Assembly: GCA_902539295.1 (NCBI GenBank)
Contig: CACBIM010000005.1
Span: 54,695 to 118,694, forward strand
DNA length: 64,000 bases
Reading direction: 5' to 3'
Source of the DNA: an uncultured SAR116 cluster alpha proteobacterium
Lineage (GTDB): Bacteria; Pseudomonadota; Alphaproteobacteria; Puniceispirillales; GCA-002684695
Position 1 is the stretch's first letter. Each line of letters begins with the position of its first letter. Made by a program: the position numbers and the translations under genes. The notes below the pieces were generated by a model. It did not search any database and was not told the origin of the DNA. It was given only the letters and a program-made list of their open reading frames with translations. Of this stretch, positions 42,735 through 45,594 are shown in pieces.

Positions 42735-44036
42735 CTATTCAGCAACATCTGCAATAGTTCCTTCATGGAATTGATCTTCCTCAGTTGAACCTGATAAAGC
42801 AGTCGTAGAACAAGCGCCCCCTTTAACAGCTACAGATATAGCATCAAACCATCCAGCGCCAACTTCTCTTTGATGCCTATGAGCAGTATAACCAATATTT
42901 TCAGCTAAGAACTCTGCATCCTGAAGCTCGCTATACGCTGTCATCCCTTTCTTTTTATAGCCATGGGCTAATTCAAACATGCTGTAGTTTAGTGTATGAA
43001 ACCCAGCGAGAGTAATAAATTGAAATTTGTATCCCATAGCTCCGAGTTCCTTTTGAAAACGAGCTATGTCATCCTTACTTAAGTTTGCTGTCCAGTTAAA
43101 ACTTGGACTGCAATTATAAGCTAGTAACTGTTCTGGATATTCTTTTCGTATAGCTTCAGAAAATTTCTTTGCTTGATCTAAGTTTGGTGTAGAAGTTTCC
43201 ATCCAAATCAAATCTGCATATTCTGCATAAGCTCTTCCTCTAGTCACGCATCGTTCAAAAGAACTTTCAGGAGTTAGAGTATAAAAACCTTCAGCAGTTC
43301 TTTCTCCTGTTAAATAGGGTTTGTCTCTCTCATCTACATCTGAAGTAATTAATTTTGCTGATTCTGCGTCTGTTCTTGCAATTATCAAAGTTGGTGTTCC
43401 AGAAATATCAGCTGCAAGTCTTGCAGCATTTAAATTTGATATATGTTGTTTGACTGGTATCAGTACTTTCCCACCCATATGACCACATTTTTTTTCAGCG
43501 GCTAATTGATCTTCAAAATGCACTCCTGATGCTCCAGCTTCAATATAATTTCTTGTAATTTCGAATGCGTTTAAAACGCCTCCAAATCCTGCTTCAGCAT
43601 CAGCTATAATTGGAGCAAACCAGTCTCTCTGTGGTGAGCCATTTTCCATAACTTCAATTTCATCAGCTCTAGAAAGCGTTCGATTAATTTTTTTTACAAG
43701 TTCAGGACCAGAATTCGCAGGGTAGATAGATTGATCAGGATACATTCCACCAGCCAAATTATTATCTGCAGCAATTTGCCATCCAGAAAGATAAATTGCT
43801 TTAAGTCCTGCACGCACTTGTTGCATCGCCTGGTTACCAGTTAAAGCTCCTAATGTATTTACGTAATCTTCATTATGAAGTAGTGACCATAATTTTTGCG
43901 CACCTCTGTGTGCGAGAGTATGTTCAATTTTGACAGACCCTGAGAGCTTTTTAACATCTGCAACAGTGTAATCTCTTTTTTTATTTTTGAATCTACCTGG
44001 TTTAGCATTATTAAGCTTTTCAAAATCTTCATTCAT
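42735..44036 (-). CDS. aceA: Isocitrate lyase
   Basis: A 433-residue protein, about the size of the E. coli enzyme. It cleaves isocitrate to glyoxylate and succinate. The catalytic KKCGHMGGK lies near residue 184; [15 protein letters not shown] and YNCSPSFNW blocks are conserved as in ICL. A strong Shine-Dalgarno, AAGGAG, precedes the ATG. It is divergent from an ScfR/RamB-type regulator across 145 bp containing five TTTACAAA-like sites. With glcB at 14146 it forms a complete glyoxylate shunt, needed when acetyl-CoA or acetoacetate (as from carnitine or fatty acids) is the carbon source. Confidence 0.97.
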
Positions 44037-44104
44037 TTTTAACTCCTTATAAAATATAATAAGCTTATATATTCTGAAAAAATAAAAATCATTGAAATAA
44101 ATGC

Positions 44105-44175
44105 AAATTTGTAATAGTGTAAAATTTACAAAATGTTATTTTGTAAATATTTACAAAATATAATTTTTACAAATT
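44105..44175. promoter_or_regulatory. Cluster of TTTACAAA-type operator sites between aceA and the ScfR-like gene
   Basis: Five copies of one motif occur in 71 bp: AAATTTGTAA (44105), ATTTACAAAAT (44124-44134), ATTTTGTAAAT (44138-44148), ATTTACAAAAT (44149-44159) and TTTTACAAATT (44165-44175). The central two are back to back in opposite orientation, making an exact inverted repeat. RamB/ScfR-family regulators are known to bind short TTTGCAAA-like half sites near glyoxylate-shunt genes; these differ from that by one base. The cluster ends 7 bases before the regulator start, which suggests autoregulation as well as aceA control. Confidence 0.65.
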
Positions 44176-44181
44176 CACAAT

Positions 44182-45594
44182 ATGCAATCTAAATCTGAAA
44201 AAATAATATTAGGTCACAAAATTAAGAGACTAAGGCAAGACTTAAATATAAGTCAGCTTGAGATGGCACAAGAGCTTAATATTTCAGCGAGCTACTTAAA
44301 CTTAATAGAAAATAATCAGAGGCCTATAACAGTTAACTTACTTTTCAAGCTAGGACAATTATATAACATTGATTTTAAGGAGTTTACAGAGGATGAAACT
44401 GGAAAGCTGAGTGTTGAGCTGAATGAAATTTTTTTAGATCCAGTATTTAAATCGAGTGATATTACTAAAAGAGATATTAAAAATCTAGCACAAACCTCTC
44501 CAGTAATTGGAAATGCTATAATTAAGCTTTTTGAAACTTATCTTAAATTAAAAGAGGAAACAAATGATAATGCTGACCTGCAAAGTTTAAAGCTTGCACC
44601 ATTTGAGAGCATAAGAAGTTTTTTAGATAATTCAAAAAATTATTTTCCAACACTAGAGCAAGCATCAAAATCAATTAGGGCAAAATCAAATATAAATGAC
44701 GCAGCAAATATTTATTTTAAATTATGTAAGTATGTTGAGGATAAATTAAAAACTCAAATTAAAGTTCTACCTAAGTCAATTATGGAAAACTTATTTAGTA
44801 GATATGATCCTCATAGAGGTCGCATACTTATTTCAGAGGCGCTTGACATAGAAAACAAAAGTTTTCAAATTGCATCACAAATTGCTCTTATTGAGTTTGA
44901 TGATTTAATAAATGAAATTATTATTAAGTCTAATTTCAAATCACCTGACGAAAAATATCTCCTAAAAATGTCTCTTGCAAACTATTTTGGACTTTCCCTA
45001 ATTATGCCTTACGATGAATTTAAATCATCAGCAGTTGAGCTTAGATATGATTTAGAAATTCTATCTGCTCGTTTTTCTACAAATATAGAACACGTTTGCC
45101 AACGATTAACTACACTTAATAAAAGAACAAATTTAGGTGTGCCTTTTTTTTATTTTAAATTTGATGAGGCTGGAAACATTCATAGTAGGCTATTTTCAAA
45201 AGACATGAATTTTCCAAAAAATCCAGGGGCTAATCCTGATTGGTCTGTTCATCAAATTTTTAAAAATCCAGGAAGCACATTAGTACAAGTTTCTGAACTA
45301 GAAGGAGGCAAAAAATTTATTAATATTTCAAAAACTATTAAAAGATCCCTAGTTAATATAAATGAAACCAGCCCACTATTTTCGATAATTTTGGGTTGTG
45401 AAATAAGATATATGGAAAATCTTGTTTATGCAGATACTCTGCTTCAAAATAAAGTTCAAAAAGTATCAAAGATACATATTGGCTGTCGCTTATGCGGAAT
45501 GAATGTGTGTGAACACAAGAAAAATGAAACAGATTTAGCCACTCTTCTCGATCCTAATATAAGATATAACGGTCTATTTGAATTTAATAATTGA
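44182..45594 (+). CDS. XRE-family regulator of the ScfR/RamB (short-chain fatty acid/acetate) type
   Basis: A 470-residue regulator. Residues 10-63 are an XRE helix-turn-helix (IKRLRQDLNISQLEMAQELNISASYLNLIE). The central region (about 160-300) corresponds to the IrrE-like M78 domain, but the HExxH metallopeptidase motif is absent (FQIASQIALIEFDDL), as is usual for transcription-factor members. The C-terminal domain ends in a cysteine cluster, GCRLCGMNVCEHKK near residue 434, which may bind metal or sense redox state. Homologues control glyoxylate-shunt and propionate genes in response to acyl-CoA. Its divergent position beside aceA and the shared operator cluster make aceA its likely target. 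Confidence 0.88.
   Translation: MQSKSEKIILGHKIKRLRQDLNISQLEMAQELNISASYLNLIENNQRPITVNLLFKLGQLYNIDFKEFTEDETGKLSVELNEIFLDPVFKSSDITKRDIKNLAQTSPVIGNAIIKLFETYLKLKEETNDNADLQSLKLAPFESIRSFLDNSKNYFPTLEQASKSIRAKSNINDAANIYFKLCKYVEDKLKTQIKVLPKSIMENLFSRYDPHRGRILISEALDIENKSFQIASQIALIEFDDLINEIIIKSNFKSPDEKYLLKMSLANYFGLSLIMPYDEFKSSAVELRYDLEILSARFSTNIEHVCQRLTTLNKRTNLGVPFFYFKFDEAGNIHSRLFSKDMNFPKNPGANPDWSVHQIFKNPGSTLVQVSELEGGKKFINISKTIKRSLVNINETSPLFSIILGCEIRYMENLVYADTLLQNKVQKVSKIHIGCRLCGMNVCEHKKNETDLATLLDPNIRYNGLFEFNN

Follow-up and report, generated by a model that had tools for sequence, protein, structure and literature searches.

A conserved half-site array between divergent aceA and scfR genes is a predicted ScfR operator in the SAR116 order of marine alphaproteobacteria

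The closest known system to the locus described here is that of RamB from Paracoccus denitrificans, a class 2 member of the ScfR (short-chain fatty-acyl-CoA regulator) family, which binds upstream of the glyoxylate operon, binds CoA esters, and mediates activation on acetate and repression on succinate (Kremer et al. 2023, PMC10370305). In Mycobacterium tuberculosis, RamB represses icl1 and itself, and PrpR binds the site TTTGCAAA-N-TTTGCgAA (PMC3420887). The latter protein (MtPrpR) carries a [4Fe4S] cluster with the ligands Cys447, Cys450, Cys455 and Cys363; induction is abolished in the C363A mutant, and the cluster has been proposed to make the protein an iron sensor (PMC6765138). A literature search recovered no earlier description of such an operator or regulon for the SAR116 clade. 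Here we examine a 64,000-nucleotide stretch of DNA from an uncultured SAR116 alphaproteobacterium (the window), in which an array of short repeated sites separates an isocitrate lyase gene from a divergent gene for an ScfR-family regulator. We find that this element is real, unique in its genome and selectively maintained, that it accompanies a clade of ScfR proteins, and that it marks distant aceA promoters.

The first of the flanking genes, aceA (42735..44036, minus strand), codes for a protein of 433 aa with the KKCGH active-site motif, and a profile search matched it to NF011645 with 729 bits (cut-off 562); its sequence thus identifies it as a true isocitrate lyase. The second (44182..45594, plus strand) codes for a regulator of 470 aa, combining an HTH domain (residues 14-68), an IrrE/M78-like domain (188-310) and a ScfRs domain (311-446), with Pfam scores of 117 bits for PF09856 (cut-off 24), 55.7 for PF06114 (22) and 44.3 for PF01381 (23). 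The C-X2-C-X4-C motif of the ScfR C-terminus is present as CRLCGMNVC at 435-443, and the protein is the only one with a PF09856 (ScfR) domain in the assembly. Its closest solved structure is M. tuberculosis PrpR (6CZ6, E 2e-46), while its score against the NCBIfam equivalog of actinobacterial RamB, NF038139, is 305 bits, below the cut-off of 700. In a protein tree it belongs to a clade of the class whose members are mostly encoded next to aceA, and it shares with class 2 RamB the feature of being encoded beside glyoxylate-cycle genes, being divergent from aceA here and likewise in the aceA-adjacent relatives. Membership of the ScfR family leads us to predict that it binds short-chain acyl-CoA.

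The intergenic region between these genes (44037-44181) is very AT-rich, with few G or C. As the original prediction had it, five near-identical motifs occur within 44108-44173, namely four exact TTTACAAA/TTTGTAAA words, at 44125..44132 (plus strand), 44140..44147 (minus), 44150..44157 (plus) and 44166..44173 (plus), and a fifth with one mismatch at 44108..44115 (minus strand; TTTGTAAT on the plus strand). The back-to-back inverted repeat that had also been noted is a perfect 22-bp palindrome, ATTTTGTAAATATTTACAAAAT, at 44138..44159, which contains the core TGTAAATATTTACA and consists of ATTTTGTAAAT abutting ATTTACAAAAT; this last 11-mer is present three times (44124+, 44138- and 44149+). A further palindrome, TGTAAAATTTACA, with a 1-bp spacer (44118..44130), matches the pattern TGTAAAN{1,3}TTTACA. 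Two extra half-sites, TGCAA at 44102 and TGTAA at 44118, lengthen the array, so that it comprises seven TGTAA/TTACA/TGCAA half-sites (44102..44173) on a roughly 8-bp grid, with starts at 44102, 44110, 44118, 44126, 44142, 44151 and 44167 and spacings of 8, 8, 8, 16, 9 and 16. It lies ~65-135 bp upstream of aceA. On the other side the cluster had been taken to touch the start of the regulator gene; it comes close without touching, its last word ending 8 bp before the ATG at 44182. A scan of the locus for -35/-10 (sigma-70) promoters returned only a chance-level candidate, and none was placed with confidence.

To what extent such a cluster might be expected in DNA of this composition depends on the measure chosen. 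Dinucleotide shuffles of the region gave four copies of the TTTACAAA-type word in 0/20,000 cases, but since the region is so AT-rich, some 8-mer is present four times in 8% of its shuffles, which makes shuffling alone a weak argument. Likewise, TTTACAAA with one mismatch allowed occurs in the window about as often as chance predicts, with no enrichment, and across the genome the 11-mer ATTTACAAAAT, when one mismatch is tolerated, is no more frequent than its controls. Single-word enrichment in the window or in the AT-rich genome was accordingly dropped as evidence, and the argument rests on the cluster and its conservation. Elsewhere between the genes of the window, as crudely delimited from ORFs, there is 1 copy in 3,120 bp, which gives 0.05 expected at the array. 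A scan of the whole 2.16-Mb assembly, which is 88% complete, showed the array region to be the sole place with two exact TTTACAAA/TTTGTAAA words within 46 bases. Elsewhere in this genome, pairs that involve TTTGCAAA or TTTATAAA fall in coding sequence, except at L067, and TGTAAAN{1,3}TTTACA has four matches, two in the array and two inside coding sequences.

The array is retained in two congeners. In the more distant of these, AG-343-K16, whose regulator is 61% identical, the spacing from the second half-site onward is the same (8, 8, 16, 9, 16), and identity to the window reaches 43/46 positions inside the sites (93%) as against 56/99 outside (57%). Beyond the genus, the top over-represented 7-mer upstream of orthologous regulators, obtained with no prior input, was TTTACAA/TTGTAAA, which occurs in all 24 upstream regions (expected 2.9), drawn from ten other genera with a locus G+C of about 0.37-0.62. 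Spacing differs by group, with 13/10 bp in most SAR116, 8/9/16 bp in the genus of the window and 9-bp direct repeats elsewhere. Given this variation of spacing and orientation between genera, what carries over is the half-site TGTAA/TTACA and not the 8-mer. The proposal that the 8-base word may define the binding site of the family in marine alphaproteobacteria is supported by conservation across the SAR116 order, with the half-site in place of the word as the common unit.

The same half-site can be traced in the sites of characterized regulators. When the wild-type oligonucleotides of the Paracoccus RamB study are aligned with the mutated ones, two boxes emerge, TGACAAACCTTACA and TGACAATACTGACT, the first of which reads TGTAAGGTTTGTCA on the other strand, that is, two TGTMA half-sites 9 bp apart. 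A 9-bp distance is also seen in TGTAAAnnnTGTAAA, found upstream of many other alphaproteobacterial ScfR genes, and the PrpR site has a 9-bp period as well. In nearby orders, two loci (L119 and L120) display TTTGCAAA and TTTGTAAA together in one promoter. It had been pointed out that the window's motif is one base away from the RamB core; the difference of one base is there, and this co-occurrence, along with the half-site layouts, suggests that it is to be reread as a variant of one half-site.

We then considered how the genes and the element are distributed by searching 61 genomes of the order for ScfR and aceA. Both are missing from the 22 genomes of family f4. Among the remaining genomes aceA was recovered in 21, just two of which have no full ScfR, both with aceA at a contig edge. 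In five genomes aceA is detached from the regulator gene, and the element is found at four of these aceA promoters (G005, G008, G020 and G035), the fifth being cut off by a contig end; in G005 it takes the form TGTAAATATTTACA, the same core as in the window's palindrome, and in G008 TGTAAATCTTTACA. As the detached promoters carry the element, a regulator-driven element can be separated from a mere neighbor effect, and aceA is indicated as a target.

The 12-base palindrome pattern TGTAAAN{1,3}TTTACA was run on 16 genomes. In seven ScfR-bearing ones (G005, G008, G009, G012, G015, G023 and G036) it gave 13 matches, all intergenic and every one preceding the regulator gene, aceA, tctC or a ketopantoate-reductase-like (KPR-like) gene; reversed-pattern controls on the same seven genomes gave five. 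The matches at the regulator and aceA are partly circular, as those promoters inspired the pattern, while the tctC and KPR-like promoters played no part in deriving it, and both recur across genera. The tctC gene, heading the tctCBA genes for a tripartite tricarboxylate transporter, is preceded by the pattern in three genera (G005, G008 and G012; L199:2835, L200:2509 and L202:2774). The KPR-like gene is preceded by it in G005, G015 and G023 (sites at L200:12805, L201:2363 and L207:1983) and, in G008 and G012, has a promoter region in common with the regulator gene. Three f4 genomes were at control level, the respective counts being 2, 3 and 1 for the pattern and 5, 3 and 2 for the controls. 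The pattern is unspecific in the low-G+C genomes G001, G004 and G043, as shown by extra matches, several inside coding sequence; it is not matched exactly anywhere in the ScfR-bearing G018, G021 and G059. A KPR-like homolog was not found in the window's own genus, in a search run without a positive control. Taken together, the predicted regulon comprises scfR and aceA, and in relatives also tctCBA and the KPR-like gene.

Malate synthase, present in 55 of the 61 genomes, including those without aceA, was considered as a co-target and rejected: two half-sites early in its coding sequence in the window are not retained in the two congeners, and the promoters examined in relatives hold no paired sites. 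Family f4 keeps malate synthase in those of its 22 sampled genomes where that enzyme was found. The KPR-like gene neighbors succinate/malate-CoA-ligase-like genes. Two further sites, possibly due to chance, lie upstream of genes for basic-membrane-protein-like binding proteins, named by eye, at L001:1501 in the window's own genome and L208:1877 in G001. We also observed a second SAR116 clade of ScfR proteins (L113, L114, L115, L116 and L117), about 30% identical, divergent from a BhcA-like aspartate-glyoxylate aminotransferase gene (565.6 bits, below the cut-off of 650) and with a different-looking, TTAATTTGTTAA-like upstream element; the counterpart regulator at the BhcA gene of Paracoccus is the IclR-type BhcR.

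These observations make it very probable that the divergent genes aceA and scfR share this cluster as an operator to which ScfR binds. The original prediction that the regulator binds the cluster and controls both genes is largely supported by the order-wide conservation, the detached aceA promoters, the congener spacing and the control-level counts in f4. That the cluster arose by chance in intergenic DNA very rich in A and T, as the scarcity of G and C and the 8% of shuffles with a fourfold 8-mer might suggest, is already refuted by its conservation, which extends to relatives at 45-62% G+C, and with its uniqueness in the genome and the contrast between 93% and 57% identity inside and outside the sites we give this explanation practically no weight. 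The element might instead serve autoregulation of scfR only, with aceA controlled elsewhere and merely sharing the intergenic region; it does persist upstream of scfR in genomes without aceA (e.g. G012, G015, G026, G027 and G049), but its occurrence at the detached aceA promoters of four genomes and at the tctC and KPR-like promoters renders this improbable. Slightly less probable still is binding by a transcription factor other than ScfR: any such genome has several HTH proteins, yet the element tracks the ScfR gene, being found at its own promoter in all 24 upstream regions examined and at control level in the three genomes of family f4, which lacks ScfR, and characterized ScfR proteins bind related half-sites, TTTGCAAA in the case of PrpR and, in that of Paracoccus RamB, TGTAAGGTTTGTCA, the tested box as read on its other strand.

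If the cluster is indeed a shared ScfR operator, the regulator, which is a tetramer in a solved relative, would bind several of the TGTAA/TTACA half-sites at once. It may repress its own gene, as suggested by sites that end no more than 9 bp from its start codon and by the self-repression of M. tuberculosis RamB. By analogy with RamB in Paracoccus, bound ScfR could keep aceA repressed in the absence of ligand and switch to activation once an acyl-CoA signals the use of acetate or fatty acids; both signs are possible for this gene. In relatives the regulon would also take in tctCBA and the KPR-like gene.

The regulator of this genus has a further peculiarity. It retains three of the cluster cysteines, and at the position aligned with Cys363 of MtPrpR it has Asn351 (codon AAT, 45232..45234, plus strand). 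This asparagine is shared by all four genus members seen (the window, L033, L034 and L063), as against a cysteine in 60/60 sampled homologs from outside the genus. Glyoxylate-shunt expression has been tied to iron limitation in marine bacteria (PMC11069385). One speculative reading, which we hold to be rather unlikely, is that the genus, having lost the fourth Fe-S ligand while keeping an expanded, 8-bp-phased operator, has an acyl-CoA switch on aceA that is uncoupled from iron or coupled to it differently. This natural variant, with its fourth cysteine lost, could be used to ask whether it is the cluster that makes iron sensors of ScfR proteins.

The predicted operator and regulon bear on how the glyoxylate shunt is controlled in a marine clade that is abundant and little cultured. 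The half-site further points to a possible relationship among TTTGCAAA, TTTACAAA and the box of Paracoccus, and makes regulon prediction possible in other ScfR-bearing alphaproteobacteria. With the M. tuberculosis proteins PrpR and RamB the window's regulator shares its domain order; its word has A in place of G at one position, as a result of which it is no longer self-complementary, and Asn replaces the fourth cluster cysteine, Cys363 of MtPrpR. PccR of Rhodobacter sphaeroides, reportedly described by Carter and Alber in 2015, is said to be an alphaproteobacterial ScfR that regulates propionyl-CoA carboxylase through the site TTTGCAAA-N4-TTTGCAAA; it resembles the window's system in its paired 8-mer sites and differs in its target. 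The aceA-ScfR pair of Azospirillum sp. B510 (L145) has the same divergent gene order with TGTAAA repeats in between, although its regulator is 35% identical, its layout is one of direct repeats and its G+C is high. In Paracoccus, as in the window, an ScfR gene is divergent from glyoxylate-cycle genes with repeated short boxes in between, binding being predicted for the window. The Paracoccus homolog adjoining aceB-aceA (L146) is only 29% identical to the window's regulator, and the tree places it apart from the aceA-adjacent clade, with a long branch that was flagged as unreliable. The target of Paracoccus RamB is aceB-aceA, as against aceA alone in the window, and its two boxes with an 18-bp spacer have their counterpart here in seven half-sites on an 8-bp grid (8/9/16 bp), a different layout; the distances are comparable, with the motif 82 bp upstream of the target in Paracoccus and the window's first palindrome ~81 bp upstream of aceA.
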